Below are positions 4,549 to 22,096 of a DNA stretch of 64,000 nt, one piece after another. The notes under the pieces were generated by a model, which had not been told where the DNA came from, searched no databases, and was given only the letters and a program-made list of their open reading frames with translations. Source of the stretch: Loktanella sp. DSM 29012 (GTDB lineage Bacteria; Pseudomonadota; Alphaproteobacteria; Rhodobacterales; Rhodobacteraceae); NCBI RefSeq assembly GCF_900110705.1, contig NZ_FOEJ01000009.1, forward strand, positions 1 to 64,000. Reading direction: 5' to 3'. The first letter of the stretch is position 1; each line of letters begins with the position of its first letter. The position numbers and the translations under genes are program-made.

Positions 4549-4557
4549 GGGACGACC

Positions 4558-6084: not shown

Positions 6085-7269
6085 TTATTTGCGGCCAGCG
6101 AGGGCGTCGGCCAGCCGCGCTGCGGCATAGCTGATCAGCACACCAACCACTGGCAATAGCCACGGCAGCCAGACCACATCCGCCTCGACCCGCAGCAGGA
6201 TCTGGCCCGCCAGTGACAGAACTGTCCCCAGCCCGAACACTAATAGCCCGTGCCGCCCTAGCAAGCGCAGCGGATCCGCGACGGGGTGCGCGCACAACCG
6301 GGTAACGACAGGCAGGCAGGACAACACATAGGCCAAGGCCAGAATGTGCAGCAAACGCGGTGCCGCCAGCATCGGTTTGTTGTGAGAGGTAAAGTTGGCG
6401 GGCGCACCCAGATCGCGCAGCTGCGCCATCTTGTGGTTCATGAATGCGCCAAGGTCGGGAATGTGTCGCCACGCAAAGGCAAAGAGCACAAAGGCCAGCG
6501 TCACCGCGAACAAGCCGCGCGACACCGGGACAAGGCGTTTGCCCTGCCGGTGCCGGATGCCGATCAGCAGCCCGATGGTAAAGATCAGCTGCCAGGTCAG
6601 CGGTCCCAGAAACCAGACGCCGTTGCCCGGATAATTGGGGATGTTCCAGCCGTTCGCCCCGGCAAAGCCCCACAACAGGATCGCCGCAGCCAGCGTCCAC
6701 CAGGGTTTTCGCAAACCGGCCATCAGGATGAACGGGGCTGCGATCATCAGCACGATGTACGTGGGCAAGATGTTCACGTAGCCGATCTGATAGGTCATGA
6801 TCGGCAGACCGATCAGCGCGGCGCCAGTATTTTCGTAGATTGCAGCAAGGTTATGCATTTCGCGGAATTCCCCGCGAAAAAACACGCCCGCCGACCAGCT
6901 GAACATCCCGATCGCTGCGATGGTCAGCACGAGCTGCACACAATACAATGTCCAGGCCCTGCGCCACATCGGGGCCATCCCGTCCCACAGGCGCGCCTCG
7001 CCGTGGAGCCAACGGTCAACGGCCGGGGAATAGGCGATGCCCGCGGCGATGCCCGACATGACGAAAAACGCCTCGGCTGCGTCGGAAAAACCGATGTTAC
7101 GGACGGTCACCGCCTCCCATGGGTTGCCGGGCATGTGGTCGATCAGGATCATGACCAGCGCCAGGCCGCGAAACACGTCGATCCGGGGATCGCGCGACAC
7201 CGGGGGGGCGACCACACCTATGGGACGCGATACGGGCGGGCGATCAGGCCGTGCGGGCGATTGCGCCAT
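6085..7269 (-). CDS. opgC: OpgC-type glucan-modifying membrane protein
   Basis: A 394-residue integral membrane protein of the OpgC family, which adds charged substituents such as succinyl groups to osmoregulated periplasmic glucans. It opens with the family's RIDVFRGLALVMILIDHMPG after a short cytoplasmic tail and has about ten hydrophobic segments. ATG 7269 is used because AAGGAA precedes it. It overlaps the last 26 bases of opgH, so the two are probably translationally coupled. It is the third gene of opgGHC. Confidence 0.88.
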   Translation of the reverse strand: MAQSPARPDRPPVSRPIGVVAPPVSRDPRIDVFRGLALVMILIDHMPGNPWEAVTVRNIGFSDAAEAFFVMSGIAAGIAYSPAVDRWLHGEARLWDGMAPMWRRAWTLYCVQLVLTIAAIGMFSWSAGVFFRGEFREMHNLAAIYENTGAALIGLPIMTYQIGYVNILPTYIVLMIAAPFILMAGLRKPWWTLAAAILLWGFAGANGWNIPNYPGNGVWFLGPLTWQLIFTIGLLIGIRHRQGKRLVPVSRGLFAVTLAFVLFAFAWRHIPDLGAFMNHKMAQLRDLGAPANFTSHNKPMLAAPRLLHILALAYVLSCLPVVTRLCAHPVADPLRLLGRHGLLVFGLGTVLSLAGQILLRVEADVVWLPWLLPVVGVLISYAAARLADALAGRK

Positions 7270-9013
7270 CGGCTGTTCCTTTTGGATCGGTGTCCCGCGC
7301 CAGATTGCGGCGGTAATCTGCAACGACAGGCGGCAGGGATGTTTCTTGGGGCACGCCGAAGACGCCACCCAGCATCGGCCATGACGTCACGGTGATCAAA
7401 AACGGAGCGATGATCATCGGCACCGTGACCGGCAGCAGCCAGACCACCAGATCAGGGGCCGCGCGCAGCACAAAGATTGATACGGCGACGCCGAACAGCG
7501 TGATCCAGCGCCCCGCGCGCCAACCCTCGACCCAGCCCAGGCGACCTTCGCCGCGAGCGGTGGCAGGCCAGCCGCCATCACGACCCGACAGCACCTCTGC
7601 CGCGGCGCGGGACTGATACATCAGCATCAGGGGGGCAATCAGGGCTGTCAGCAGGGTTTCGGCCAAGACCGACCCCAGCGCGCGCAGCGTGCCGCCGAAC
7701 TGGTATGCCCGGCCCGTCAAAACGGATTCGGCATAAATCGCCAGCTTTGGCAGCAGCAAGAGCCCGCCGACCCCGCAGGCCAGTGCCACGATCTGGAACG
7801 TGCGATCATCGGGAAAAACCGGGAACAGCTGGTAGGCATCGGGGAAATAATTCGGTGCCCCGGCCGTCGCGGCCGCCAACAGGGAGACGATTAGAAACGC
7901 ACCCCAGGCCAGGGACACCAGGTAGGATACGATCCCCTGGAAAAAGACGAACCTGCTCCACTTGCGCAGGCCGGGTGCGTTCAGCAATCGGATATGCTGC
8001 AAATTGCCCTGACACCAGCGTCTGTCACGCCGCGCGAAGGCCAGCAGGTTTTCGGGCCCCTCCTCGAAGGAGCCGTCGATCCGGGGGTCCATTTCGACCT
8101 GCCAGCCGCCGCGCACCAGCAATGCGGCCTCGACGTAGTCATGGCTGAGGATGGTGCCGCCAAAGGGCGGCGGGCCTGTCAGTTCAGGCAGGCCGCAGCA
8201 TTGTGCCAGCGCGCGCACGCGGGCGATTGCGTTATGGCCCCAGAACGGTCCCGCAGGGCCCTGCATCCGCGCCAGCCCGCGCGCAAAGACAGGGGAATGA
8301 AAGCTGGCTGAAAACTGCATCGCACGGCCGAACGCGGTTTCGGCACCGACGATCCGCGGCAGCGTCTGAAGCAATCCCAGACCGGGGTTTGCCTCCATCC
8401 GGGCGACCAGATGCCGGATTGCCTCGCCTTCCATCAGACTGTCGGCGTCCAGCAGCACGACATAGGTATAGTTCCCGCCAGACCTGCGGATGAAATCCTC
8501 GACGTTGCCAGCCTTGCGGCCACGGCGATCCTCGCGGACGCGGTAATAGACGGTGCTCAGACCGTCGTTCTGGTCAAACAGCAATAGCAGTGCGGCGCGT
8601 TCGGTCCGCAGGGCGTCGGGGTCTGACGTGTCCGACAGAATGGCAAAATCCGCAGGGACGCCAGCACGCACCATTGACTGCCGCATGGCCTGAACGCGGG
8701 CGCAGACCTCGACCGGGTTTTCGTTGCAGATCGGCACGAGGATTGCCGTGGCCGGAAAATAGCCGTTCATCAGGGTCGTGCGCGGGGCAGGGGCCAAAGC
8801 CGGCAGCCCGATAAACGCCTGCGCCGCCCCCCAGGCCAGCCAGCCTGTGGTGATCGCGATCAGCAGCACGCTTGCGCCGTCCCAGACGTCGAACCCGGTG
8901 TTCAACCCTGCCTGCGCAAGCGTTGCCGCCGCTGCGACCATGCACAGCAGCGCAAAGGTGATACCAACGATGCGGCTGGTCCGCACGCTGGACGGTCTCA
9001 GGTGCCTTTGCAA
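7244..9013 (-). CDS. opgH: Glucan biosynthesis glucosyltransferase (main reading frame)
   Basis: A 589-residue family-2 inner-membrane glucosyltransferase that polymerises UDP-glucose into the beta-1,2-linked glucan backbone. The GT2 core has LSDTSDPDALRTE, the DADSLMEGE metal-binding aspartates, and the acceptor signature DRRWCQGNLQH. Transmembrane segments flank the catalytic domain. It is much shorter than the enterobacterial protein (about 850 residues), as usual in Rhodobacterales. The only in-frame start is a TTG at 9013 without a clear ribosome site. A 56-codon ORF in the next frame ends at 9015, so the true N-terminus may lie there (see next entry). Confidence 0.88.
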   Translation of the reverse strand: MQRHLRPSSVRTSRIVGITFALLCMVAAAATLAQAGLNTGFDVWDGASVLLIAITTGWLAWGAAQAFIGLPALAPAPRTTLMNGYFPATAILVPICNENPVEVCARVQAMRQSMVRAGVPADFAILSDTSDPDALRTERAALLLLFDQNDGLSTVYYRVREDRRGRKAGNVEDFIRRSGGNYTYVVLLDADSLMEGEAIRHLVARMEANPGLGLLQTLPRIVGAETAFGRAMQFSASFHSPVFARGLARMQGPAGPFWGHNAIARVRALAQCCGLPELTGPPPFGGTILSHDYVEAALLVRGGWQVEMDPRIDGSFEEGPENLLAFARRDRRWCQGNLQHIRLLNAPGLRKWSRFVFFQGIVSYLVSLAWGAFLIVSLLAAATAGAPNYFPDAYQLFPVFPDDRTFQIVALACGVGGLLLLPKLAIYAESVLTGRAYQFGGTLRALGSVLAETLLTALIAPLMLMYQSRAAAEVLSGRDGGWPATARGEGRLGWVEGWRAGRWITLFGVAVSIFVLRAAPDLVVWLLPVTVPMIIAPFLITVTSWPMLGGVFGVPQETSLPPVVADYRRNLARDTDPKGTADGAIARTA

Positions 9014-9014
9014 A

Positions 9015-9185
9015 TCAGATGTTCCGCAGGAACAGGCGTGAGAACATTTCGAATGTCGACGGACGGGCTGCGTGTTCCAGCACCTGACGCGGCATGTCCA
9101 GCGGCGCGGGGCGCGGTGCCAGTGGCGTCAGGTCATGGGTCGGTGCCATAGTGCTATCCATCGTCACGGTCAGTTTTTCATCCAT
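9015..9185 (-). CDS. 56-residue ORF coupled to opgG; probable N-terminus of OpgH in another frame
   Basis: The ATG at 9185 overlaps the last codons of opgG, and the frame ends two bases before the TTG used for opgH. The peptide is proline-rich (APRPAPLDMPRQVLEHAARP) and ends SRLFLRNI. In style it resembles the cytoplasmic tail that alphaproteobacterial OpgH proteins carry before their first membrane segment. Skipping one base at the final ATC-TGA-TTT would join it to the opgH frame without a stop. It is either a real one-base insertion, an assembly error, a +1 frameshift site, or a coupled leader peptide. Confidence 0.55.
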   Translation of the reverse strand: MDEKLTVTMDSTMAPTHDLTPLAPRPAPLDMPRQVLEHAARPSTFEMFSRLFLRNI

Positions 9186-10768
9186 TGATATACCCACGTC
9201 TCTGTCAGCAGCCGGTCGCCTTCGGCCAGATTCGCCCGCATTTCGACGATTGCACCGGGATCGGCTGCGACTTCGAGCACAAGGCGCCATGTCGCATCCT
9301 GGCCGTCCACGCGTTGCAGCACCTCTTGAACAAGGGTGCCACCGTAAATGCTGGTTCGTGCCTCAACCAACAACTCTGCGATCGGTTCCGCCAACAGGCC
9401 GCCCTGGAAATCGATCACGAACTTTCGCGTGTCCGCGCTGGGTTCGACACCCGAGACACCGCCGGCGCCCGCCAATGTGTGCGTGATCTGCGCAAGGTCG
9501 GATTGCGCGCCCGGTGGGGTCATGCCCCAATGCAGCCTGTAGGACACCTTTGCACTGCTGCCCGCGCCATAGGGGTTCTGGGGAATCCAGAAGGCGACAA
9601 TATTGTCGTTCGTTTCCAGATCCGTCGGAATCTCGATCAGGCGCACCGTGCCGTCACCCCAGTCGCCCACAGGTTCGACCATCAGGCTGGGACGTCGTTC
9701 ATAGAAAGCTTCGGCATCCAGATAGCTTTCAAAGTCCCTGTTGCGCTGCACCAGACCGAACGACCGGGGCGACTGCGCACTGAAATAGGAATTGGCCAGT
9801 TTCTGCGGGTTGTTCAACACACGGTAAAGCGTTTCACCGCCTGCATTGTTGATGATCAGCGCCTCGCTGTCGTGGACACGCGTGCGGTAGTCATCGAATG
9901 GACCCTGGTCGTTCAGTCCGAACAGGAACATGGACGTCAGCGGTGCAATTCCCAGCTGTTCGATGTCGCGGCGAAAGAACAGTTCGGATGTGACGTCGAT
10001 GGTCGTCGTCTCGCCTGGTGTCAGCGAGAACTGGTATGCCCCTGCCACGGATTCGCTTTCCAGCAGGGCATAGAACGTGACGGCCGTGTCGCCCGGTGCC
10101 GGGCGCGTCAGCCAAAAGGCGCTGAAACGCGGAAACTCTTCTGCCTCGGAGGTGGCGGTGTTGACCGCGAGTCCGCGTGCACTGAGCCCGTAACGGTTAT
10201 CCTTGCCCAGTGCGCGGAAATAGCTGGCCCCCAGGAACGTCACGACCTCGTCGAAGCGGTCGGGCGCGTTCAGCGGCAAGTTTAGCCGGAATCCCGCCAC
10301 GCCCGGAAAAATTTCGCCATCGGTCAAGGGCTGTTCGACGTCGCCGCCGTATCTGAAATCGCGCGCCGAAAAGTCCATCGGAACAGCCATGCCGTCGACG
10401 ATTTCGAACAGATCGACGGTGCTGTCGAACAACCAGCCCGGATGATAGGCATGCAGCACGGCAAATGCCTCTGGCCCGGCCCAGCGGGCGCGTGCCTCGT
10501 TGAACTGGATCGTGCGGTAGGCGTCGTAATCCAGGTCGGTGAACGCCGCACTCAGAACCTCTGGCGGGACATAGGCCTGTGCGGCGGTCTGCCGCGCCCG
10601 GTCCACCAGCGCTGCAAACGAAAACGGCGTGGCCAGTTCGGCCGCGACCGTCTGTGCCGTTGCAGTTTGTGCCAGCGTCCCCAGCAAGGACAGTGCGGCG
10701 ATGGCTGATCCCCCTTGTTTCAGGACAGATCGGCGTGAAAGTGGCTGTGACGTGCGGGAGGGTCTCAT
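9170..10768 (-). CDS. opgG: Periplasmic glucan biosynthesis protein OpgG/OpgD
   Basis: A 532-residue exported protein that branches or processes the nascent glucan in the periplasm. The N-terminus has a Tat-type twin-arginine signal (PLSRRSVLKQGG) followed by a hydrophobic stretch and an AQTATAQ cleavage region. Tat export is more typical of OpgD than OpgG. The mature domain shows the family motif FDYDAYRTIQF-like stretch (LDYDAYRTIQFN) and RYGGDVEQPL. First gene of the leftward opgGHC operon. Divergent from an EEP-family gene across about 270 bases. Confidence 0.9.
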   Translation of the reverse strand: MRPSRTSQPLSRRSVLKQGGSAIAALSLLGTLAQTATAQTVAAELATPFSFAALVDRARQTAAQAYVPPEVLSAAFTDLDYDAYRTIQFNEARARWAGPEAFAVLHAYHPGWLFDSTVDLFEIVDGMAVPMDFSARDFRYGGDVEQPLTDGEIFPGVAGFRLNLPLNAPDRFDEVVTFLGASYFRALGKDNRYGLSARGLAVNTATSEAEEFPRFSAFWLTRPAPGDTAVTFYALLESESVAGAYQFSLTPGETTTIDVTSELFFRRDIEQLGIAPLTSMFLFGLNDQGPFDDYRTRVHDSEALIINNAGGETLYRVLNNPQKLANSYFSAQSPRSFGLVQRNRDFESYLDAEAFYERRPSLMVEPVGDWGDGTVRLIEIPTDLETNDNIVAFWIPQNPYGAGSSAKVSYRLHWGMTPPGAQSDLAQITHTLAGAGGVSGVEPSADTRKFVIDFQGGLLAEPIAELLVEARTSIYGGTLVQEVLQRVDGQDATWRLVLEVAADPGAIVEMRANLAEGDRLLTETWVYQWMKN

Positions 10769-10842
10769 GAATCAGGTTCCAATTCGTGCTGCAGCGCGGA
10801 ATACATTCGTTTTCAGCGAAACTTCAATACAAGACATAAGGT

Positions 10843-10859
10843 TGCAGCGGAAAGCTGCA
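10843..10859. promoter_or_regulatory. Inverted repeat in the opgG/EEP divergent promoter region
   Basis: TGCAGC and GCTGCA form a perfect 6-bp inverted repeat with a 5-base centre, 75 bases upstream of opgG and 180 upstream of the EEP gene. It could be an operator for either unit. The rest of the 272-base gap shows no gene and no clear sigma-70 promoter to my reading. Confidence 0.25.
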
Positions 10860-11040
10860 TAGACTGAATTTCTGCGGTGCAGCGTATGCCAACGACCCAA
10901 ATCGTCAGGTTTTCGCGCGCCACTTGCCATGAACCGGCAACAGGTTGCCTGTGCAGGACCGGGGCATTGCCCACAGGCATTGGCGGGCTATCCTGTATCG
11001 CAGTCCGTGGCAGTCCTGCGGATTTCGCAGACAGGCAAAG

Positions 11041-11787
11041 ATGACTGACAGACGCCATCCGATGACATGCGTGACGTGGAACCTGCATCGCACCGTCGGG
11101 CGCGATGGTCGCGCGGACGCGGATCGTATCGCCGGTGTCATGGCAGCAGATATCGCGGCGCATCAGCCGCAGATCCTCGCGCTGCAAGAGGCGGATTCGG
11201 ATGATATCCCGCCGCAGGCCTTGCTTGATCTGGATGCGGTGTCCCGCGCGACCGGGCTGCGCAGCCAGCATGCAAACCCGGACATGCGTTGTGGCGGGAC
11301 GGCGCATGGTTGTCGCGGCAATATCCTGCTTCTTGACCCCGAAATGATCCCGACGTCGCAGTTCGTCCTGCGATTGCCGGGTCGCTATCACCGCGCCGCT
11401 GTCGTGACCGAAGTGCTGTATCGCGGTGCCGCCATGCGGATCATTGCCTGTCATCTGGCGCTGTTGCAGGTTCTGCGTGTGGCACAGATGCGGACAATTG
11501 CGCGCGCCTTGGTGCCGCGTTCCGTGATGCCGACCGTCCTGCTTGGTGATCTGAACGAATGGCGACCCTGGGGCGGGCTGGCATTGCACCCCTGGGCCAC
11601 GTCGCTGCCGTTGACCGGCCCCCGTGTGCGGACCTTTCCGGTGCAGGCCCCGGTTCTTGCGCTGGATCGCGTGCTGACCTGCCCCGCGTTGCGCGTGGAC
11701 CACGCGGCTGCGCTCGATTCGCCCGAGATTCGCGCGGCGTCCGACCACCGTCCGCTGCTGGCGCAGATCACGAGGCTGGCCGCATGA
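11041..11787 (+). CDS. Endonuclease/exonuclease/phosphatase (EEP) family protein
   Basis: A 248-residue metal-dependent phosphodiesterase-type protein. EEP hallmarks are in order: CVTWNLHR near residue 10, the metal-binding glutamate in LALQEAD, the central GNILLLDP, LLGDLNEW (catalytic Asp-x-Asn), and the C-terminal ASDHRPLLA His. No signal peptide is evident, so it is predicted cytoplasmic. The ATG at 11041 (alternative ATG at 11062) begins a rightward run. Its stop overlaps the next gene as ATGA. Neighbours are lipid-headgroup and membrane enzymes, so a phospholipid-derived diester is a more likely substrate than DNA (inference). Confidence 0.82.
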   Translation: MTDRRHPMTCVTWNLHRTVGRDGRADADRIAGVMAADIAAHQPQILALQEADSDDIPPQALLDLDAVSRATGLRSQHANPDMRCGGTAHGCRGNILLLDPEMIPTSQFVLRLPGRYHRAAVVTEVLYRGAAMRIIACHLALLQVLRVAQMRTIARALVPRSVMPTVLLGDLNEWRPWGGLALHPWATSLPLTGPRVRTFPVQAPVLALDRVLTCPALRVDHAAALDSPEIRAASDHRPLLAQITRLAA

Positions 11788-12518
11788 AACACACCGCATC
11801 TGCCGTGGCATGGTCTGGATTGTCGGCCCCTGCACATCGACTGGCTTGCTGGGGGCTGGGTCTGTTTCCGGTGCTGCTGTGGCTGGCGTGGCAGGTCTTT
11901 GCCGCAGGCCTGCCTGTGACCTCGTTGGTTTATCTGGCCGGTTTGGCGTTCGTGGTGTTGCGCATGGCGCAGCATTACCCGCATCGCGCGGTCGGGGCCT
12001 GCAACATCGTGACAACTGTCCGGTTCATGCTGGTGGCCGTGCTATGTGCCGGGATTGGCGCCAGTGTCCCTCTCGCCCCAGAAGTGTCTTGGGCCGTCTT
12101 CGGGATCGCGGCGGTGGCACTGTCGCTGGATGGTGTCGATGGCTGGCTGGCGCGCAGGCAGGCGCTTGTGTCCGCCTTTGGCGCACGCTTTGACATGGAA
12201 GTCGATGCGCTGCTGGCGGCTGTCCTCGCGCTGCTGCTGTTCATGGACGGGCGGGCCGGGCCAGAACTGCTGGTGCTGGGCGGCGCGCGTTATGTCTTTG
12301 TGTTGGCAAGCTATGTCTGGCCGTGGCTGGATACGCCATTGCCGGCCAGTTTCAGACGCAAGCTGGTCTGCGTGATCCAGATCGCAGCGCTGGCGGCGCT
12401 GGCGCTGCCGGTGCTGCCCTATGCTGCCGGACGTGTGATTGCGCTGACCGCATCTGTTCTGCTGGTCTGGTCATTTGCCGTGGATATCCGCTGGTTGGCA
12501 CGCCGACGATGCACCTGA
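11784..12518 (+). CDS. CDP-alcohol phosphatidyltransferase family protein
   Basis: A 244-residue membrane enzyme. The complete CDP-alcohol phosphotransferase signature is present: D-G-V-DG-W-L-AR, then eight residues, G, three, D, three, D (region LDGVDGWLARRQ onward, near residues 110-140). Several hydrophobic segments surround it. The family transfers a phosphoalcohol from CDP-diacylglycerol or CDP-alcohol. The acceptor cannot be read from sequence. It overlaps the EEP gene by four bases and the following gene by ten, so the three are probably made together. Confidence 0.85.
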   Translation: MKHTASAVAWSGLSAPAHRLACWGLGLFPVLLWLAWQVFAAGLPVTSLVYLAGLAFVVLRMAQHYPHRAVGACNIVTTVRFMLVAVLCAGIGASVPLAPEVSWAVFGIAAVALSLDGVDGWLARRQALVSAFGARFDMEVDALLAAVLALLLFMDGRAGPELLVLGGARYVFVLASYVWPWLDTPLPASFRRKLVCVIQIAALAALALPVLPYAAGRVIALTASVLLVWSFAVDIRWLARRRCT

Positions 12519-13414
12519 CGCTGCGCCTGATCTGTGTTGCAGCGCTGTGCCTGCTGCTGGTTGTTGTGGTCGATACGGATGCCTTGTGGGACCGCCTGCG
12601 CAATGTGCAGCCCGGTTGGATCGTCGCTGCCACCCTTTGCCTGATTGCGCAGACGATGCTGATGGCGCAGCGCTGGCGGCTGGTGGCCGTCTGTCTGGGC
12701 GTGACTTTTTCCTATCCTTGGGCATTGCGTGAATACCTGCTGTCGCAGACGCTGAACCAGGGCCTGCCGGGCGGCGTGTTGGGGGACGGCGCGCGCGCAC
12801 TGCGGTCCGCGCCGGGAACCGGGAACCGGATGCCTGCCGCGCAGGCTGTCATTCTGGAAAGGGCCGCTGGCCAGTTGGGTTTGCTGGCAGTGGCGATGAT
12901 CGGGCTGACGTTCGCCCTGTTCGCGCCGGGCGCGCTGGCGGCGGCGCAGGGTTTTGTCGTCCGGATTGCGCTGGCGGCTGTCGCGCTTTGCATCCTGGGG
13001 GCCGTGATCGCCGTGGTGATGCGTGGATCACGCCCTGCCACGCTGGTGCGGCGATGTCTGCCCACATGGCGGATCGGCCTTGTGCAGGCGGGTCTGTCGG
13101 TGGCGGCAGCCTTGTTGAATATAGCGGCCTTTGCCGCCTGCGCCCAAGCGACCGGCACATCGCTTGATCTGCCCTCGGCGCTGGTCCTCGTGCCGTTGAT
13201 CCTGTCGGCCATGTTGATCCCGCTGTCCGTGGGCGGCTGGGGGTGGCGCGAAGGGGCGGCGGCGGTCGTCTTTCCGCTGATCGGCGCCTCGGCAGAGGCC
13301 GGAATTGCCGCCGGGGTGCTGTTCGGCGCTGTGATGATCCTGTCGTTGCTGCCTGCGCTGCCGTTGCTGATCTGGCGCGGTGCTGGGCGCCCGGTCGCGG
13401 CCCCGTCACCATGA
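12509..13414 (+). CDS. UPF0104/LPG-synthase-like transmembrane protein
   Basis: A 301-residue polytopic protein of the lysylphosphatidylglycerol synthase TM-region family (flippase-like domain), without the C-terminal aminoacyltransferase domain of MprF. Typical stretches are LSQTLNQGLPGGVLGDGARA, LERAAGQLGLLA and PLSVGGWGWREGAA. The family is linked to lipid translocation or lipid-linked donors. The ATG at 12509 lies inside the preceding gene, and its stop overlaps the next as ATGA. Confidence 0.8.
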   Translation: MHLTLRLICVAALCLLLVVVVDTDALWDRLRNVQPGWIVAATLCLIAQTMLMAQRWRLVAVCLGVTFSYPWALREYLLSQTLNQGLPGGVLGDGARALRSAPGTGNRMPAAQAVILERAAGQLGLLAVAMIGLTFALFAPGALAAAQGFVVRIALAAVALCILGAVIAVVMRGSRPATLVRRCLPTWRIGLVQAGLSVAAALLNIAAFAACAQATGTSLDLPSALVLVPLILSAMLIPLSVGGWGWREGAAAVVFPLIGASAEAGIAAGVLFGAVMILSLLPALPLLIWRGAGRPVAAPSP

Positions 13415-14979
13415 CGCCGCGGGTATCGACACGCCGGGATCTGGCATGGCTCTTTGTCGGGGTCGTGATGCTGCATCTGGTGCTGGTCTTGCCGTCGCAC
13501 CCGGCCGGGCTGACCGTGGCGCGGTGGTTGCGACCCACACCAGAGCTGCCGCTGATCCTGCTGTGCGTGGCGATCGTGCCGCGTGTCTGGGTCCTGGCAC
13601 CCGTTGTCGTGGCAGGATTGGGTCTTGCCGTACTCAAGATCGCGGACATCGGCACATACCTTGCGTTCAACAGGGCGTTCAATCCATTGCTGGACCTGCA
13701 TCTGTTGGTGTCGGGTTGGGCGCTGCTGGCATCCAGTATCGGCCACGGGCAGGCGGTGTTTGGGATTTGCGCAACCTTGTTGGCCGTCCTTGCGGTCGGC
13801 GCGGTGATGTGGCGCGGCCTGTGGCTGCTGTCCCGTCTGGGCTGGCGCCTGCGCAGCTTGACCGTCGGCGTCCCGGCGGGATTGGCCGTTCTGGCGATGG
13901 TGCTGCCGGGTTGGCAGGTGTTGCAGGTCACGCCACTGGTTCAGGCACAGGTCGACAGGATGGGTCGGGGCATCGCTGACTTGCGCGATTTTGCCGCAGA
14001 TTTACCTGATCCGGTCGGACCGGCCCCCACCTTCGCCGCTTTGCAGGGGCGGGATGTGATCCTTGCATTTGTGGAATCCTATGGCAGGTCGTTTCTGGAC
14101 GACCCGGAATTCGCGGCCACCTCTGCGCCACGGCTGGCGTCGGTCGAAACCGCAATGGACGCCACAGGCTGGCATGTGCGCAGCGGCTGGGTGGCGGCAC
14201 CGACCCGTGGCGGGCAAAGCTGGCTGAGCCATGGCACGTTGCTGTCGGGCCTGTGGGTCGATAGTCAGGTGCGCTATGATCGGCTGATGACATCCGACCG
14301 CACATCGCTGAACCGGCTGTTCGGGGCTGCGGGGTGGCAGACGGGCGCTGCGATGCCTGCCATCACCCTCGATTGGCCCGAGGCAGGCTGGTACGGCTAC
14401 GACACCACACTGGACGCCGCAGGACTGGACTACCGCGGCCAACCCTTTGAATGGGTGACGATGCCTGATCAGTACACCTGGACGGCGCTGGATGAAAAAC
14501 TGCGCAAGGCAGTCATGGCCCCCGCGATGATCGAGGTGGCGCTGATCACGTCACACGCGCCCTGGACGCCGCTGCCCGATATCGTGCCGTGGGATACCGT
14601 GGGCGACGGGTCGGTCTTTGACGGGACGCGGCGGCAGGGGGACAGCCCCCGTGTCGTCTGGTCGGATCCCGCGACGATCCGTGCGCAATATGCCAAATCC
14701 CTCGACTATGCGCTGGAGGTGGCGGGACAATACATCCTGCGCCACGGTGACGGCGCGTTTTTTGTCGTGCTGGGCGATCACCAACCCGCCCCGTTGCTGG
14801 CCGGTCAGGATGCGCCCCCCGATGTGCCGGTCCATTTCATTTCGGATGATCCACGTCTGCTGGACCGTTTGCCCGCCGATGTTTTCGCACGCGGGATCGT
14901 CCCTGCACCGGATGCGCCCGTTCTGCCCATGCAGGACCTCCGGGTCCTCTTGACCACCCTGTTTGAAACGCCACTTTGA
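13411..14979 (+). CDS. Membrane sulfatase-like hydrolase (alkaline phosphatase superfamily)
   Basis: A 522-residue protein with four or five N-terminal membrane segments, then an alkaline-phosphatase-superfamily domain from about residue 215 (GRDVILAFVESYGRS). The usual nucleophile position is represented by APTRGGQSWLSHGTLLSG. The metal-site end of the fold is visible as FFVVLGDHQPAPLL. The topology recalls LtaS/OpgB phosphoglycerol transferases, which act outside the inner membrane. Next to opgGHC and a CDP-alcohol transferase, a headgroup transfer to glucan or lipid is an attractive hypothesis. The stop lies 19 bases before the ABC binding-protein gene. Confidence 0.8.
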   Translation: MTPRVSTRRDLAWLFVGVVMLHLVLVLPSHPAGLTVARWLRPTPELPLILLCVAIVPRVWVLAPVVVAGLGLAVLKIADIGTYLAFNRAFNPLLDLHLLVSGWALLASSIGHGQAVFGICATLLAVLAVGAVMWRGLWLLSRLGWRLRSLTVGVPAGLAVLAMVLPGWQVLQVTPLVQAQVDRMGRGIADLRDFAADLPDPVGPAPTFAALQGRDVILAFVESYGRSFLDDPEFAATSAPRLASVETAMDATGWHVRSGWVAAPTRGGQSWLSHGTLLSGLWVDSQVRYDRLMTSDRTSLNRLFGAAGWQTGAAMPAITLDWPEAGWYGYDTTLDAAGLDYRGQPFEWVTMPDQYTWTALDEKLRKAVMAPAMIEVALITSHAPWTPLPDIVPWDTVGDGSVFDGTRRQGDSPRVVWSDPATIRAQYAKSLDYALEVAGQYILRHGDGAFFVVLGDHQPAPLLAGQDAPPDVPVHFISDDPRLLDRLPADVFARGIVPAPDAPVLPMQDLRVLLTTLFETPL

Positions 14980-14998
14980 CCAACCATTGGAGAGTATC

Positions 14999-16288
14999 AT
15001 GAAGAAAACCCTTTTCCTTGCGGCCGCCGCATCTGCGCTGCCTGTCATGGGCACGGCCCAGGACCTTGTCATGCGGACACGCGTCGGTCTGGCCGATGCG
15101 CCGAACACGCTGACATTTCGCCTGACGGCCTATGATCTGTATTCGTCCGATCCCGCAACCAAGGCCGCGTTCGAGGCGCTGTTCACCGATTTCATTACGG
15201 CGCGCCCCGACTGGAAGATCGAGACACAGTTGCAGACCGGAAACATCGGGCAGGAACAGGCCCGCCTGCTGCAACAGACGCAGGCCGGGCGCGGACCCGA
15301 TTGCGCCATGATCGATTCCAGCCAGCTTGCATTGTTCAAGGACAATGGCGTTCTCAAACCGATGAATGACGTGTTCAGCGACGCAGAAGTCGCAGACCTG
15401 TTTCCCTTTGTGCGTGATGCTGTGACCGATGCGGACGGCAACGTGTTGGCGTGGTGGTGGTTCACGGATCTGCGCGTGCTGTACCGCGATACCAGCGTCG
15501 TGCCCGACGCGCCGCAAACATGGGAAGACCTGAAATCGGCCGCGCTGTCTGCCGTGGAACAGGGCCGCGAAGGTATCCTGTTCAACGGTGGCCGCTGGGA
15601 AGGCACCGCCTTTGACTGGCTGGCGAACGTCTGGGCGCAGGATGCGACGCTGGTCGACGACAATGGCGCGCCCGTTTTTGCCAGCGGCGAAAACCGTGAA
15701 AAGGTGTTGACCGCCATCGCCTATTATCAGGATCTGGTCGACAGCGGTGCGGCCCCCGCACGGGTCACGTCGATCACGGATTACGATTCGTTCAATGCGG
15801 CAGCCGCGGCCGGTTCTGCCGCGATGTTCATCGGTGGCAACTGGCAATACGGTCAGCTGCGCAACACCCTGCCGCCAAAGACATTCGCCAATTGGGCGGT
15901 GTCGGAAATTCCCGGACCCACGGCGGACCAGCGTGCGACCGGCACTGGCGGCTGGACCATCGCGGCCCTGACGGATGATCCGGCAAAGGCATCCCTGTGC
16001 GGCGAGATCGCAAAGGAAATCTATGCCGGTCCCGGCAACGCCGCACAGGGGCTGCTGCCGACCTCTGCTGCGATCTATGACCAGTATGACACCTATGACG
16101 GCCCCGAATACGACCTGTTCAGCGCGGCATTGCAAAACGGTGTCGCGCGACCGGGGGCTGCGATCTATCCGGAATTGTCCAACCAGATCCAGATCATGCT
16201 GGGCGATGTTCTGTCCGGCACGGCCACGCCAGAGGCGGCGCTGGATACCGCCGATGCAGCCGTTCAGGCCGCGTTTGATCGTCAGTGA
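14999..16288 (+). CDS. ABC transporter extracellular solute-binding protein (sugar type)
   Basis: A 429-residue family-1 binding protein. The signal peptide is MKKTLFLAAAASALPVMG with cleavage near TAQD. The mature protein has family features such as QTQAGRGPDCAMIDSSQL, the conserved tryptophan-rich LAWWWFTDLRVLYRD, and SAAMFIGGNWQ. GGAGAG precedes ATG 14999. The gene follows the sulfatase-like gene by 19 bases and overlaps the first permease by four. The ligand is unknown. Sugars, or UgpB-like glycerophosphodiesters, fit the family and the context. Confidence 0.88.
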   Translation: MKKTLFLAAAASALPVMGTAQDLVMRTRVGLADAPNTLTFRLTAYDLYSSDPATKAAFEALFTDFITARPDWKIETQLQTGNIGQEQARLLQQTQAGRGPDCAMIDSSQLALFKDNGVLKPMNDVFSDAEVADLFPFVRDAVTDADGNVLAWWWFTDLRVLYRDTSVVPDAPQTWEDLKSAALSAVEQGREGILFNGGRWEGTAFDWLANVWAQDATLVDDNGAPVFASGENREKVLTAIAYYQDLVDSGAAPARVTSITDYDSFNAAAAAGSAAMFIGGNWQYGQLRNTLPPKTFANWAVSEIPGPTADQRATGTGGWTIAALTDDPAKASLCGEIAKEIYAGPGNAAQGLLPTSAAIYDQYDTYDGPEYDLFSAALQNGVARPGAAIYPELSNQIQIMLGDVLSGTATPEAALDTADAAVQAAFDRQ

Positions 16289-17199
16289 CGATCATAAACC
16301 GGACCACGGATCGGGGACCGGCACCGGGCGACGGACATCCGTTGCCCTGGCTGGTTCCCGCCATCGCGATCCTGGCGGCGTTCTATGCCGTCCCGGTGCT
16401 GGATGTCCTGCGGCTGGCGTTCAGTGACGCCAGCCTGCTGGCACCCGCCAGCCGCTATTCCACTGATGCGATTGGCGGTGTGCTGGCGGATCCCGCCCTG
16501 CCTGTCGTTCTGGGAACCACGCTGGTGTTCACGCTGGCCAATGTCGCGGCCCTGCAGCTGGCGGGTCTGTGCATCGCGCTGGTGATCGCACGCGGCGAAC
16601 GCCGCGGCTTGCGCGGCATGGCGGCGTTCCGGACGCTGGTCCTTGCGGCCTGGGTGGTGCCGGGCATTGCCAACGGCCTTGTCTGGCAGATGCTGTTCGA
16701 CGAGGCCCCCTATGGCACGCTCAACAGTCTGCTGGGGTATGTGGGGCTTGGCCCCGTGGCCTGGCTGTCTGACCCGCAGATGGCCATGGCCTCTGCCGTC
16801 ATCGCGAACCTGTGGCAAGGCACTGCCTTTTCGATGATCGTCTTTTATGCGGCGCGACGTGCCATCGACCCGACCCTGTACGAGGTCGCGGAACTGGACG
16901 CCGCGACACCGTGGCAGATGTTCCGCTATATCACACTGCCGCTGATGCGGCGGCTGATTGCGGTGAACACGGTGCTGGTGACCGTGCAGACGCTGAACAC
17001 ATTCGATTCCATCCTTGCGCTGACCGGCGGCGGTCCCGGTCGCGCGACCGAGGTGCTGGCCCTGTTCACCTTCAACACCGTTTTCTACAATCTAGATCTG
17101 GCGGGTGGCAGCGTATTGGCCGTGCTCTTGTTTGCCATCGGCATGGGCTGCGCGCTGCTGGTCCATTACGTCATTGGCCGCGAAAGGCCTGCCGCATGA
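16285..17199 (+). CDS. ABC transporter permease (MalF type)
   Basis: A 304-residue inner-membrane subunit with six predicted membrane segments and the EAA loop that contacts the ATPase (ELDAATPWQMFRYITLPL). It starts with GTG in a GTGA overlap with the binding-protein gene. Partner of the next gene. No ATP-binding subunit is encoded nearby. Confidence 0.9.
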   Translation: MTIINRTTDRGPAPGDGHPLPWLVPAIAILAAFYAVPVLDVLRLAFSDASLLAPASRYSTDAIGGVLADPALPVVLGTTLVFTLANVAALQLAGLCIALVIARGERRGLRGMAAFRTLVLAAWVVPGIANGLVWQMLFDEAPYGTLNSLLGYVGLGPVAWLSDPQMAMASAVIANLWQGTAFSMIVFYAARRAIDPTLYEVAELDAATPWQMFRYITLPLMRRLIAVNTVLVTVQTLNTFDSILALTGGGPGRATEVLALFTFNTVFYNLDLAGGSVLAVLLFAIGMGCALLVHYVIGRERPAA

Positions 17200-18029
17200 C
17201 GGTGGCACGCTGGGGCGATGTGGCGACCTATGCCGTGCTGGCCGTGTTGGGGGCGTTTTTTGCACTGCCGTTTCTGTGGCTGATCAGCCTGGCCGTCCGC
17301 ACACCGGCAGAGGTTTATCTGGGCGCGTCGCGGTTCATTCCGCAGGCACCGACACTGGACAATTTCCGGCTGATCCTGTCCGATCCGGCGTTTTTGATCT
17401 ACCTCTGGAACGGTCTGAAGCTGTCGGCATCGGGTGGCCTGGTGGCTGTCGCACTGGCGATTCCGGCGGCCTATGCCGCGTCACGGCTGAATTTCCGGGG
17501 CAAACAGGCGATCCTGGTGGGCATCCTCGCGGTGCAGATGATTTCGCCACTGGTGATCCTGTTGCCGCTGTATCGCTGGATGGTCGCACTGGGTCTGCTG
17601 AACAGTGATCTGGCGGTCATCGCGGTTTACGGCGCGCTGGGAATGCCGCTGGCGGTCTGGCTGTTGAAGGTGACGTTTGACGGGGTGCCCATCGAGTTGG
17701 AAGAGGCGGCGGCCATCGACGGGGCATCACGGTTCACGACGCTGTGGCGGATCACGCTGCCGCTGGCACGGCCGGGCATTGCGTCGGCCTTTATCCTTGC
17801 GATGGTGATGAACTGGTCGCAGTTCCTGATCCCGTTCATTCTGCTGGAACGTGACGGCGATTGGCCGATTTCGGTCGCGATCTTCAATTTTGCCGGTGCA
17901 ACCAACGCATCGACGACACAGGTGCTTGCGGCGGCCTGCATCATCGCGGTGCTACCAGCGGTCATGGTCTTTGTCGCGTTGCAGCGGATGATCGTCTCGG
18001 CGCTGATGGCGGGCGCGGTCAAGGGTTAG
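17196..18029 (+). CDS. ABC transporter permease (MalG type)
   Basis: A 277-residue second permease. The EAA loop is EEAAAIDGASRFTTLWRITL in the C-terminal half, with typical MalG-like ends. The ATG overlaps the previous gene as ATGA. The stop overlaps the convergent yceI stop by a few bases, closing the seven-gene rightward run. The missing ATPase is presumably shared from elsewhere in the genome, as with MsmX/UgpC-type subunits. Confidence 0.9.
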   Translation: MTVARWGDVATYAVLAVLGAFFALPFLWLISLAVRTPAEVYLGASRFIPQAPTLDNFRLILSDPAFLIYLWNGLKLSASGGLVAVALAIPAAYAASRLNFRGKQAILVGILAVQMISPLVILLPLYRWMVALGLLNSDLAVIAVYGALGMPLAVWLLKVTFDGVPIELEEAAAIDGASRFTTLWRITLPLARPGIASAFILAMVMNWSQFLIPFILLERDGDWPISVAIFNFAGATNASTTQVLAAACIIAVLPAVMVFVALQRMIVSALMAGAVKG

Positions 18030-18613
18030 TCGGCCGCGCGCATCGCCTCTGTTTCGATGATCAATGTCACCTCGTCCCCGACAAGGCCGTTGTCCACGCC
18101 GTAAACCATGCCCCACTGGCTGCGTTGCAGCGACCCGCGGGCCGAAATGCCCAGCGTGAACCGCCCGTGACCAAACGGATAGGCCTCGGCCTTGTTCAAT
18201 GTGACATCTAGCGTCAGCGGATGCGTCTGGCCCAACAGGGTCAGATCGCCCGTGACGGTGCCGCTTGTGGCGTCGGACGGCACGCCGCCATCGGCCGTGA
18301 ACACCATGTCCGGATGGTCGGCCACGGCCAGAAAATCGCCCGATCGCACGTGCTCGTCGCGGGCATCGTTCAATGTCTCGACGCTTTGCGTGCGGACCGT
18401 CACCTCCAGATCGCTCAATTCCTGCGTTTCGGTATCGTAGGTGAAACCGCCGCTGACTTCGGCGAACAGGCCCAGCGTTGCAGCATAGCCCACATGATCC
18501 ACCAGAAAGGCAATCGTCGTGTGTTCGGGGTCCAGTTCGAACCGCGCTGGTTCGGCAGACACCGTGTCGGCAAAGGCCAATAGCCCGATGAGTGTCGCGA
18601 TCGGCGTTTTCAT
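18026..18613 (-). CDS. YceI family periplasmic protein
   Basis: A 195-residue lipocalin-like protein that binds polyisoprenoid-type lipids in the periplasm in characterised members. The signal peptide is MKTPIATLIGLLAFADTVSA. The mature part has the family pattern FELDPEHTTIAFLVDHVGY, the KSPDF-like SGDFLAVADHPDMVF, and LTLLGQTHPLTLDV. ATG 18613 follows GGAGG. A second in-frame ATG at 18625 overlaps that site and is less likely. Confidence 0.88.
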   Translation of the reverse strand: MKTPIATLIGLLAFADTVSAEPARFELDPEHTTIAFLVDHVGYAATLGLFAEVSGGFTYDTETQELSDLEVTVRTQSVETLNDARDEHVRSGDFLAVADHPDMVFTADGGVPSDATSGTVTGDLTLLGQTHPLTLDVTLNKAEAYPFGHGRFTLGISARGSLQRSQWGMVYGVDNGLVGDEVTLIIETEAMRAAD

Positions 18614-18817
18614 ATCATCCTCCATCCCGATGGGGCAGCAATGGTAGGCCAGTTGGGGCCTTCGTAAAGACAGGCAAGGCAGCGTAGATGTCGCAGACCT
18701 GGCGGACGGGGCTGCGACACTCTTGTCCGCCGGGATCATTGGCGCAGGCGCACGAAACGGTTTGCGGGTCGGGCGAATCGCGTTAGCGTTCACAAATCCA
18801 TTACAAAGGCTGCTGTC

Positions 18818-19015
18818 ATGCCCGTCACACATTACATCGCCGAAACAGACGACCGGAACGCCATTGCCGCGGTCTGGGTGCACCGGAAAGGGGGGCGCGG
18901 TCCGCGCGTGTTCCACGCAGGCAGGGATCGTTTCGATCCGGCGGAACCCGCGGCCTTTGCCGGGGCCTGCGAACTGGCGATCAAGCGTTACCTGACCGAC
19001 CAGACCGTCAGCTGA
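18818..19015 (+). CDS. Small hypothetical protein
   Basis: A 65-residue ORF whose codon use matches its neighbours (G/C in third positions). It is rich in charged residues with a compact predicted fold (AETDDRNAIAAVWVHRKGGR, then ACELAIKRYLTDQ). It ends convergently with phnM, overlapping it by eight bases. No family recognised. There is no strong ribosome site, so it could be spurious. Confidence 0.4.
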   Translation: MPVTHYIAETDDRNAIAAVWVHRKGGRGPRVFHAGRDRFDPAEPAAFAGACELAIKRYLTDQTVS

Positions 19016-20150
19016 CCCTGACGCCCCGCGACCAGACCCCCCGCAAGACGGGGGTGTCGTCGAACATCCTGACCCGCACCACATCGCCGCGTAATCCCGT
19101 TTCCAGCCTGCCACGGTCGGTCAGCCCTGCCGCGCGTGCGGGATTGGCCGACACGGTGGCAATCGCGCGCGGCAGGTCATCCCACATCTGTGCCAGCTGA
19201 AACGCGGCCCCCAGCAGGGCGGCGGGCACATAGTCGGATGACACGATGTCCAGCAGGTCATGGCGCGCCAGTTCAGACGCGGCGACATTGCCCGAATGCG
19301 ATCCGCCCCGGATCAGGTTGGGTGCCCCCATCATCACCGCGATACCATGCGCCCGGCAGGCCTGCGCTGCGTCCAGTGTCGTGGGAAATTCGGCGAACCC
19401 GACGCCGTGGCACGCGGATGTCGCCACATGTTCCGCCGTCGTGTCGTCGTGACTGGCCAGTACCGCCCCAAGGCGTCTGGCCTCGGTCACCGCGCCGTTT
19501 TCGTGTTTGTCACCCAGCCGCGCCCGCAGCGCCAGCAGGTCCGCCACATGCTGAGCGAATTCATCGTCGTTCATGCCCCGCTTTTTCGCCACATAGGCCT
19601 TGAGCGCGCTGAGGTCGCGGAACTGGCGCTGACCGGGAGTGTGATCCATCAGGCTGACGATGCCTACACGATCAATGGGGTCAAAGGCTGCGAGTTCCTC
19701 CAGCAGGGTTTCTGAACAGATTTCGGCCCGCAGGTGCAGGAAATGGCTGATCTTGAACATGCCGCGGTCGCGGGCTGTCAGCATTTCGTCCGCAAGGGTG
19801 CGGGCATAGTCGACATAGCGGCCCTTGCCGGAATGGATGGATCCCACGCGCATCGCATCGAACACGGTCGTGATCCCGCAGGCGGCCAGTTCGGCGTCAT
19901 GTGCTAAAAGTGCGGGCAGATGCGGCCAGTCCACATCGGGGCGCGGTTCCATGTGGCGTTCGACGTTGTCGGTGTGCAACTCGACAAAGCCGGGCAGCAA
20001 CAGATCACCGTCGCAGTCGATGGCCCTATCGGGGACGCTGCTGCCGTCGGTGATCCGGGTGATCTGGCCGTCTGCGATGGTGACGGACCCCAGCACGACA
20101 CGGTCCGCCAGGACCAGCCGCGCATTGGCCAGGCACAGGTCGTTTGACAT
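19008..20150 (-). CDS. phnM: Alpha-D-ribose 1-methylphosphonate 5-triphosphate diphosphatase
   Basis: A 380-residue amidohydrolase-superfamily enzyme of the C-P lyase pathway that removes pyrophosphate from the ribosyl phosphonate triphosphate. It has the PhnM-specific LPGFVELHTDNVERHMEPRP (the second His of the superfamily HxH is Asn in this family), SLMDHTPGQRQFRD and ASHDDTTAEHV. ATG 20150 matches the usual length. The other ATG upstream (20201) would add 17 unlikely residues. Divergent from the DUF1045 gene across 49 bases. Confidence 0.93.
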   Translation of the reverse strand: MSNDLCLANARLVLADRVVLGSVTIADGQITRITDGSSVPDRAIDCDGDLLLPGFVELHTDNVERHMEPRPDVDWPHLPALLAHDAELAACGITTVFDAMRVGSIHSGKGRYVDYARTLADEMLTARDRGMFKISHFLHLRAEICSETLLEELAAFDPIDRVGIVSLMDHTPGQRQFRDLSALKAYVAKKRGMNDDEFAQHVADLLALRARLGDKHENGAVTEARRLGAVLASHDDTTAEHVATSACHGVGFAEFPTTLDAAQACRAHGIAVMMGAPNLIRGGSHSGNVAASELARHDLLDIVSSDYVPAALLGAAFQLAQMWDDLPRAIATVSANPARAAGLTDRGRLETGLRGDVVRVRMFDDTPVLRGVWSRGVRVS

Positions 20151-20199
20151 CGTCGTGTCACATGGTTTGGTCAAGGATGCCGACAGCATAGGGGAATTC

Positions 20200-20901
20200 A
20201 TGTCATACGCTCGCTTTGCGATCTACTATATCCCGCCGGACGGGCCGCTGGCGGATTTTGGCGCGGCATGGCTGGGATGGGACGTGCTGAAAGGCTGCGC
20301 CGTGCCGCAGTGCGATCTGCCCGGTTTGCATGACATCACCATGACACCGCGCAAATACGGGTTCCACGGCACACTCAAGCCGCCGTTCAGGTTGCGGGAC
20401 GGCCTGACCCAAGTCGATCTGGGCCAGGCGGTAGCCGGATTGGCGGCGCAGGTTGCGCCCGCGATCTGCGACGGTCTGCAACTGTCGCGCATCGGCCGTT
20501 TTCTGGCGTTGACGCCCGTAGGCCCGGTGGACGGTCTGACCCGCGTGGCGGGTGACTGCGTGCGTGCTCTGGACCGGTTCCGGGCCCCGGCCAGTGCAGC
20601 CGAACTGGACCGCCGCAGGCAGGCCGGGCTGACCCCGCGCCAAGAGGCGAACCTGACGACCTGGGGCTATCCCTACGTGATGGATGATTTCCGGTTTCAC
20701 ATGACCCTGTCGGGCCAGTTGACGCCCGAGGCTCTGCCGCAGTGGGAATCCACCTTGCGTGACCGGTTGCCCACCTTGCCCGCGCCTTTCGCGCTGAACG
20801 AGATTGCGCTGTGCGGCGCGGGGGATGACGGGCGGTTTGCGCTGATCCATCGCTATCCCCTGACGGGTTCAAGCAGCGCCAGCGCGCGTGCGATGGTCTG
20901 A
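20200..20901 (+). CDS. DUF1045 phosphonate-metabolism protein, 2H-phosphoesterase-like
   Basis: A 233-residue protein found with C-P lyase genes in many alphaproteobacteria. It carries two HxT motifs, FHGTLKPPF near residue 55 and FHMTLSG near residue 165. These are the hallmark of the 2H phosphoesterases that open cyclic nucleotide phosphates. It lies on the strand opposite to phnM and phnN, and its last 49 bases overlap the 3' end of phnN convergently. phnP is absent from the window, so this protein is a candidate to hydrolyse the cyclic ribose phosphate product. That role is inference. Confidence 0.85.
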   Translation: MSYARFAIYYIPPDGPLADFGAAWLGWDVLKGCAVPQCDLPGLHDITMTPRKYGFHGTLKPPFRLRDGLTQVDLGQAVAGLAAQVAPAICDGLQLSRIGRFLALTPVGPVDGLTRVAGDCVRALDRFRAPASAAELDRRRQAGLTPRQEANLTTWGYPYVMDDFRFHMTLSGQLTPEALPQWESTLRDRLPTLPAPFALNEIALCGAGDDGRFALIHRYPLTGSSSASARAMV

Positions 20902-21413
20902 TCCAGCGGGCCATCGTTCGACAGGTGCAGGACGTCCAGTCCGGCAGGTAGCGGTTTGTCCGCCTGTGCCAGACGGTTCGCGATTTCGGACCGGGTTTCG
21001 CGGCCGCGCGCGGTCAGACGCGCTGCGATGGTTTCGGGGGTCGCCGTCACGTGCAGCACCAGCATGCCGGCAAAGGCATCGGCCCCGGCGGCCAGCGCCT
21101 TGCGCGAGAAATTGGCGATGCAATGGGTTCCCTTGGCCAGCTGATACCGCACCGTCTGCGGGATGCCGTAATGCAGCCCGTGTGCGCACCAATGCACGAC
21201 AAAGGCGCCGTTGTCCGCCATGTCGTCGAATGCGGCAGGGGTGACGGCATCGTAATCCTCGCCGCCCAGATCGGGCGCGCGAGTGATGACGCGGCGCACC
21301 AGATGCAGGTCGGGCATGACCGCGCAGAGGCCGCACATCACGCTATCCTTGCCCACGCCCGAGGGGCCGACGACGGCGATGAGGCGGCCTGCCGATGCGT
21401 CACCCGCCGTCAT
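20853..21413 (-). CDS. phnN: Ribose 1,5-bisphosphate phosphokinase
   Basis: A 186-residue P-loop kinase that makes PRPP from ribose 1,5-bisphosphate, the last step of the pathway. The Walker A motif is GPSGVGKDS at residues 14-22, followed by the guanylate-kinase-like RRVITRAPDLGGEDYDAVTP and FVVHWCAHGLHYGIP. ATG 21413 overlaps the phnL stop as ATGA. Confidence 0.92.
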   Translation of the reverse strand: MTAGDASAGRLIAVVGPSGVGKDSVMCGLCAVMPDLHLVRRVITRAPDLGGEDYDAVTPAAFDDMADNGAFVVHWCAHGLHYGIPQTVRYQLAKGTHCIANFSRKALAAGADAFAGMLVLHVTATPETIAARLTARGRETRSEIANRLAQADKPLPAGLDVLHLSNDGPLDQTIARALALLEPVRG

Positions 21414-22093: not shown

Positions 22094-22096
22094 GGT

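Follow-up and report, generated by a model that had tools for sequence, protein, structure and literature searches.

This study concerns a seven-gene cassette at positions 11041-18029 on the + strand of the window, which is the stretch of 64,000 nucleotides at the start of contig NZ_FOEJ01000009.1 of Loktanella sp. DSM 29012, and its possible connection to the opgGHC genes from which it diverges. The first gene (11041..11787) codes for a hydrolase of the endonuclease/exonuclease/phosphatase (EEP) family, YbhP subfamily (PF03372, 44.4 bits), the second (11784..12518) for a CDP-alcohol phosphatidyltransferase (PF01066, 51.7 bits), and the third (12509..13414) for an integral membrane protein of the flippase-like family PF03706 (LPG_synthase_TM, 95.9 bits over residues 12-278). 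The fourth (13411..14979) codes for a membrane-anchored sulfatase-like enzyme, assigned to the sulfatase/LtaS/EptA fold by family alignment and predicted structure, which for brevity is called the transferase below. These are followed by the genes for a CUT1 sugar-type solute-binding protein (14999..16288; SBP_bac_1, 76.5 bits, and SBP_bac_8) and two CUT1 permeases, one MalF/UgpA-like (16285..17199; BPD_transp_1, 59.2 bits) and one MalG/UgpE-like (17196..18029; BPD_transp_1, 65.2 bits), both also matched by NCBIfam. All of these bit scores are over the cut-offs. The junctions are, in order, -4, -10, -4, +19, -4 and -4 bases, and the seven genes are presumably one transcript. A scan of 10700-18200 gave 0 sigma-70-type promoter sites against a mean of 1.2 in shuffled sequences, and 6 terminator-like sites against a background of 5.4, so that it neither backs nor contradicts a single transcript. 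The reading frames, their strand, the tight junctions and the divergence from opgGHC were verified as given in the initial annotation, and the enzyme classes it named were borne out by Pfam and NCBIfam matches or, for the fourth protein, by family profile and fold.

The fourth protein had been described as LtaS/OpgB-like, and this agrees with the predicted fold and not with the sequence. As a single sequence it has no credible match in Pfam; when 23 members of its protein family are aligned, 22 of them match PF00884 (Sulfatase) at E <= 1, the best at E 3.2e-12. The AlphaFold model (pLDDT, the predicted local distance difference test, 89.1) has a helical N-terminal region (residues 8-196) followed by an alpha/beta catalytic domain. 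Compared to solved structures with Foldseek it finds LtaP as the top match by E-value (2.6e-10), with LtaS, MCR-1, EptA and GacH also among the best, and all of these are only 12-16% identical to the transferase. A search of the PDB sequences gave no match with the single sequence and nothing credible with its profile; the predicted fold alone matched. LtaS and LtaP, GacH, EptA and MCR-1 are membrane-anchored, metal-dependent phospho-alcohol transferases, and from the modelled fold the fourth protein is probably a phospho-alcohol transferase as well. E222, S270, R297, H382, D456, H457 and H475 are invariant in the alignment of 23 transferases; by analogy S270 is the probable nucleophile, and E222, D456, H457 and H382 would surround a metal site.

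The CDP-alcohol enzyme is one of four PF01066 proteins in the genome. The other three are a canonical PgsA (141 bits to TIGR00560, cut-off 109.1), a protein nearest phosphatidylcholine synthase (238 bits, below the cut-off of 350) and one of ambiguous type (best 55.8 bits, cut-off 180). The best NCBIfam model for the cassette enzyme is likewise PgsA TIGR00560, with 33.6 bits, so that the cut-off is not reached. T77, D119, R124, D137, E139 and D234 are invariant in 45 aligned sequences (48 rows minus the poorly aligned L031, L174 and L175), and the structure model (pLDDT 94) has PgsA 7drj as its nearest solved fold (template modelling score, TM, 0.58/0.73; E 1.1e-3). The EEP protein can be assigned more closely. 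It matches E. coli YbhP by blastp (34.7% over 124 aa, E 8e-11), a profile made from 17 cassette EEPs with YbhP excluded scores YbhP at 76.3 bits, and a stretch FP...P.L.LDR is common to the cassette EEPs and YbhP in the alignment. N14, E50, D170, N172, D235 and H236, which we take to be the catalytic residues, are invariant in 18 aligned sequences including YbhP. By sequence the cassette EEP thus belongs with YbhP.

Three sets of loci were used to follow the cassette in other genomes. The family sample has 198 genomes of the window's family, Rhodobacteraceae, 24 of which, the window genome included, carry an orthologue of the transferase. The class-wide sample has 387 genomes, 28 with the transferase; neighbourhoods were taken from 25 of the 27 matches outside the window (G442 and G551 were left out). 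The named loci are the best 80 of at least 559 confirmed relatives of the transferase and are by title mostly from Rhizobiales. In neighbourhood counts, a gene is taken as near if about 10 kb or less separates it from the transferase gene. It should be noted that the counts of co-occurrence and linkage ignore kinship, no phylogenetic correction being applied, and that the reading frames at the loci come from a crude base-composition rule, by which some are evidently antisense (e.g. L044 14361 and L030 10514).

Thirteen of the loci are window-like, namely the window and 12 from Jannaschia, Tropicimonas, Palleronia, Roseivivax, Allosediminivita, Mesobaculum and Pseudoroseicyclus. All 13 have the CDP-alcohol gene, 12 the PF03706 gene, 10 a YceI gene and 8 the EEP gene; in the window the YceI-family gene (18026..18700, start approximate, - strand; NF002994, 110 bits, below the cut-off of 232) converges on the 3' end of the cassette. 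In 12 of the 13 the importer and the transferase gene are on the same strand and no more than 200 bp apart. The claim that the operon is a unit therefore holds among close relatives, and we regard the protein classes and this unity as well supported. Among the 24 family loci the CDP-alcohol gene is near the transferase gene in 22, PF03706 in 20, cytochrome b561 in 18 and EEP in 11. For the best 80 named loci the corresponding numbers are 78 for CDP-alcohol, 67 for PF03706 and 7 for EEP.

The solute-binding protein and the two permeases are predicted to form a MalEFG-type CUT1 importer. The best solved relatives of the binding protein in the PDB sequence search are 5ci5, MalE3 and SmoF, and it is 75-82% identical across 11 window-like relatives. 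The cassette (11041-18029) does not code for an ATPase. A related importer in L036 is adjoined by an ATPase of the UgpC subfamily (475 bits, cut-off 432), and this ATPase has 12 matches in the window genome at E <= 1e-40, the six best being UgpC/MalK-like, with 46-58% identity, and all on other contigs. Near the transferase gene a CUT1 importer is found in 4 of the 24 family loci and an SsuA-like importer in 13; both are never found together, and 7 loci have neither. The SsuA-like binding protein scores 27.7 bits to SsuA_fam, which is below the cut-off. An example of the second type is the region L041:6648-9259 (- strand), where a solute-binding protein of this kind, an ATPase and a fused double permease are coded (e.g. 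7264-8259). The alternation hints that an uptake step matters though the type of importer can change, and only weakly, since ATP-binding cassette (ABC) importers are abundant in such genomes. The proposal that the importer takes back a released diester found no direct support: the binder is of the MalE-like CUT1 sugar type, and 13 of the 24 family loci have the SsuA-like importer instead. It could also be imagined that the importer, or the entire block, is next to opgGHC only by accident and that its role is catabolic and unrelated. The abundance of ABC importers, the variation of importer type by lineage and the seven loci with neither type near would fit this. Because of the tight linkage in 12 of the 13 window-like loci a chance placement of the importer was set aside, and together with the position of opgG in other carriers, given below, the linkage makes this explanation most improbable.

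The gap between the EEP gene and the divergent opgG (mdoG) gene is 272 bases. OpgG (9170..10768; PF04349, 577.8 bits), the glucosyltransferase OpgH (7244..9013; NF003959, 716 bits, cut-off 550) and an OpgC-type acyl (succinyl) transferase (6085..7368; PF10129, 298.7 bits) are all coded on the - strand. In the window's family the two systems go together. opgG is found in 83 of the 198 genomes, in 23 of the 24 carriers of the transferase against 60 of the 174 others (p = 4e-9), and leaving out the window genome in 22 of 23 carriers (p = 1e-8). In 10 of the 24 carriers (9 of 23 without the window) opgG and the transferase gene are no more than 10 kb apart. Counted in the 22 opgG-bearing carriers other than the window, 9 have it within 10 kb, where about 0.6% is expected for each, and this argues against a chance placement of the block. 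The linked state has also changed repeatedly. On a tree of 127 transferases it is found in 13 rows (opgG or opgH) and requires 8 changes, at least 6 of them by well supported branches; the tree was made by a quick method, 33 of its 124 branches have support below 80, and L060 and L062 (short reading frames) and L184 (no transferase) were left out.

Part of this linkage is found with a divergent group of opgG genes (full-length matches, 431-504 bits), which occurs in 8 of the 198 family genomes (G035, G037, G062, G074, G105, G159, G175 and G067). Seven of the 8 are carriers, in 6 the gene is within 10 kb of the transferase gene, and six of the ten transferase-adjacent opgG genes fall in this group. 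In a genome of another family (G564; L162:7462-10829) the transferase frame starts 32 bases after opgG, and no CDP-alcohol or PF03706 gene was detected near this pair. Outside the family the association is looser. Thirty loci were chosen from the best 80 named ones and 29 of them searched; opgG was found in 20, and in every one of the other 9 there are open frames, 2840-2932 aa long and presumably of NdvB type, which match PF06165. Class-wide, 11 of the 28 carriers have opgG, compared to 49 of the 359 genomes without the transferase (p = 0.0013; 10 of 27 carriers when the window genome is left out, p = 0.003). Among class-wide carriers with transferase scores over 400 bits the number is 7 of 12, and the weaker matches may be paralogues.

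Taken together, the fold of the transferase and the company it keeps make it likely that a dedicated lipid gives up a phospho-alcohol to an acceptor in the periplasm. The co-occurrence and linkage point to the OpgGH glucan as the best single guess for the acceptor in the window's family. The explanation of the cassette which we tentatively put first, although it may well be wrong, is therefore a system which transfers a phospho-alcohol from donor lipid to acceptor in the manner of OpgB, OpgE and LtaS, has its own lipid supply, and has the OpgGH glucan as its likeliest acceptor. The CDP-alcohol enzyme would make a phosphatidyl-alcohol, probably similar to phosphatidylglycerol (PG) and possibly with a phosphorylated head. 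The YbhP-like EEP could trim or dephosphorylate this lipid, or recycle a product, and the PF03706 protein, judged by its family, would carry the lipid to the periplasmic face. There the enzyme with the predicted LtaS/EptA fold would pass the phospho-alcohol to the acceptor, leaving diacylglycerol behind; in the window's family this acceptor would most likely be the OpgGH glucan, as co-occurrence and linkage suggest. The CUT1 importer, with an ATPase coded elsewhere, might bring in the head alcohol or sugar, or salvage breakdown products.

A number of observations weigh against this explanation. By sequence the transferase is not similar to either OpgB or OpgE: the hhalign probability is about 0.5% in each case, and the hmmsearch scores are -0.9 and -2.3 bits. 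When the CDP-alcohol profile was run against the PDB sequences, cholinephosphotransferases came first (E 4.6e-6) and PgsA only at E 0.22; with PgsA nearest by fold and cholinephosphotransferases nearest by profile, neither fixes the substrate. In the window-like clade itself opgG is within about 10 kb in only 2 of the 13 loci, and one family carrier (G132) has neither opgG nor PF06165. Of the class-wide carriers 17 of 28 are without opgG and 16 without opgG and PF06165 alike, and the common neighbours in the Rhizobiales loci are GT4 (glycosyltransferase family 4), PTPS, a zinc-dependent alcohol dehydrogenase (Zn-ADH), RibD_C and FkbM, not glucan genes. In the 25 class loci the CDP-alcohol gene is near in 8, PF03706 and EEP in none and opgG in 1. 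These counts mean that the whole line of genes does not accompany every such transferase, and the 17 loci without a detected CDP-alcohol gene weigh against a fixed core; the transferases at some class loci without lipid genes may be paralogues. A universal link to the opg genes is ruled out by the 23 of 24 family, 20 of 29 named and 11 of 28 class-wide carriers with opgG. The association with glucan synthesis proposed in the initial annotation thus stands in the family and fails outside it, where the 16 class carriers with neither gene show the block to be widespread without opg genes and where opgG is within 10 kb at only 1 of the best 80 named loci.

The same transfer chemistry could serve another acceptor, such as lipid A or lipopolysaccharide, a surface polysaccharide, or a glycolipid primed as by LtaP, the opg genes then being envelope neighbours and not substrates. 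We consider this somewhat unlikely. It would go well with the structural matches: MCR-1 and EptA have the highest query-normalised TM among the top-ranked matches listed (0.51 and 0.48, over 587-589 alignment columns, gaps included), and LtaP, the top match by E-value, is a glycolipid-priming enzyme. It would also go well with the class carriers which have neither glucan synthase, and with the GT4 gene found near the block in 15 of the 24 family and 57 of the best 80 named loci. What it does not predict is the presence of opgG in 23 of 24 family carriers, the repeated linkage in the family, or the tandem opgG-transferase pair in G564.

A different set of genes is found beside the transferase in Rhizobiales and elsewhere. 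Near the transferase gene in the best 80 named loci are Zn-ADH in 58, GT4 in 57, a methyltransferase in 57, PTPS in 56, RibD_C in 51, FkbM in 47 and cytochrome b561 in 40, and of the 25 class loci 8 have PTPS near, the count being 8 also for Zn-ADH, for GT4 and for methyltransferase. The CDP-alcohol gene and PTPS occur together in seven class loci, on several deep branches. In Rhizobium sp. CF080 (L066:3131-9964) RibD_C, an S-adenosylmethionine-dependent methyltransferase, GT4, PTPS and Zn-ADH are followed by CDP-alcohol, FkbM, PF03706 and the transferase. Similar clusters with varying members are seen in many of L060-L128 and in L160, L161, L174, L175, L177, L179 and L181. Such clusters are often near cytochrome b561, and in L033 RibA adjoins Zn-ADH. 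The Rhizobium type of cluster looks like a lipid-linked pathway from GTP. In our reading the pair of transferase and CDP-alcohol enzyme is old, with the GTP-derived set as a frequent partner outside the family and the opg genes as a frequent partner inside it.

This opens for the alternative that the CDP-alcohol enzyme and the transferase come from an older pathway with the GTP-derived module (RibA, RibD_C, PTPS, Zn-ADH, GT4 and methyltransferase) as the maker of the head, and that the window lineage kept the lipid part and imports the head. The numbers for PTPS, Zn-ADH, GT4, RibD_C and FkbM among the best 80 named loci agree with this, as does the presence of much of the set beside the pair in the seven deep lineages from L160 to L181 named above. 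Zn-ADH is found in 15 of the 198 family genomes, in 6 of the 24 carriers against 9 of the 174 others (p = 0.004), and 17 of the 24 family loci have an importer of one of the two families, never of both, near the block. Still, no Zn-ADH orthologue is found in the window genome at E 1e-30, one is missing from 18 of the 24 family carriers, and 9 genomes have Zn-ADH without the transferase. Furthermore, no PTPS is nearby in 17 of the 25 class loci, and the linkage in Rhizobiales could largely be shared ancestry. We hold this origin to be unlikely. A bolder version is quite improbable: the two enzymes would be the membrane half of an alphaproteobacterial pathway, often near cytochrome b561 or YceI, in which an envelope acceptor is given a phospholipid whose glycosylated head derives from GTP (pterin or ribityl type), and the window lineage would have lost the head-making half, replaced it by the importer, and retargeted the transfer to OpgGH glucans.

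If the cassette is a transfer system with the OpgGH glucan as its likeliest acceptor, as we tentatively propose, there are bacteria which draw on a dedicated donor lipid, and not on bulk PG or phosphatidylethanolamine (PE), to decorate their periplasmic glucans or some other envelope glycan. This would point to roles for proteins of PF03706 and of the YbhP type, and it would give a testable reaction to a large sulfatase-like group of cryptic role, with at least 559 relatives. In Rhizobiales the GTP-derived set found next to these genes would be a further pathway. No description of the cassette or of this gene set was found in the open-access literature searched, part of which was covered by title and abstract.

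Two other neighbourhoods in the window should be mentioned. Just past the YceI gene, at 19008-22900 on the - strand, are phnM, phnN, phnL and phnK of a carbon-phosphorus lyase operon. These genes prompted the idea that the importer has a phosphonate role, which was rejected because no locus but the window has PhnM near the block (1 of 24 family loci, 0 of the best 80 named loci and 0 of 25 class loci). Beyond opgC, at 3934-5391, are genes for the protocatechuate 3,4-dioxygenase alpha subunit and 3-oxoadipate:acetyl-CoA acetyltransferase.

Several known systems resemble the cassette in part. The E. coli gene order ybhP-clsB-ybhN is identical to that of the cassette: first comes an EEP, which belongs to the same subfamily, then the phospholipid synthase, then a PF03706 protein. 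YbhN is assigned to PF03706 by its record annotation, and the cassette protein has no direct profile similarity to it, the two having only the Pfam family in common. E. coli has the phospholipase D-type ClsB where the cassette has a PF01066 CDP-alcohol enzyme, and the cassette adds the transferase and the importer. PgsA is both the nearest solved fold and the best NCBIfam model for the CDP-alcohol enzyme, but the latter is under the PgsA cut-off and is additional to the canonical PgsA of the genome. LtaS and LtaP, GacH, EptA and MCR-1 are like the transferase in predicted fold and in having a membrane-anchored N-terminus and a catalytic domain; the nucleophile of LtaS is a threonine, whereas a serine is predicted here. 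A further parallel is with OpgB and OpgE of E. coli; the transferase is genomically linked to opgGH in its family. According to PMC3818809, OpgB and OpgE have membrane segments followed by a periplasmic sulfatase-type domain and have no significant similarity to each other, and OpgB takes phosphoglycerol from PG and OpgE phosphoethanolamine from PE as substituents of osmoregulated periplasmic glucans. On this description the layout, N-terminal membrane helices and a periplasmic domain of the sulfatase superfamily, is that predicted for the transferase; OpgB and OpgE draw on PG and PE of the membrane, whereas the transferase travels with a CDP-alcohol enzyme, a PF03706 protein and an importer.

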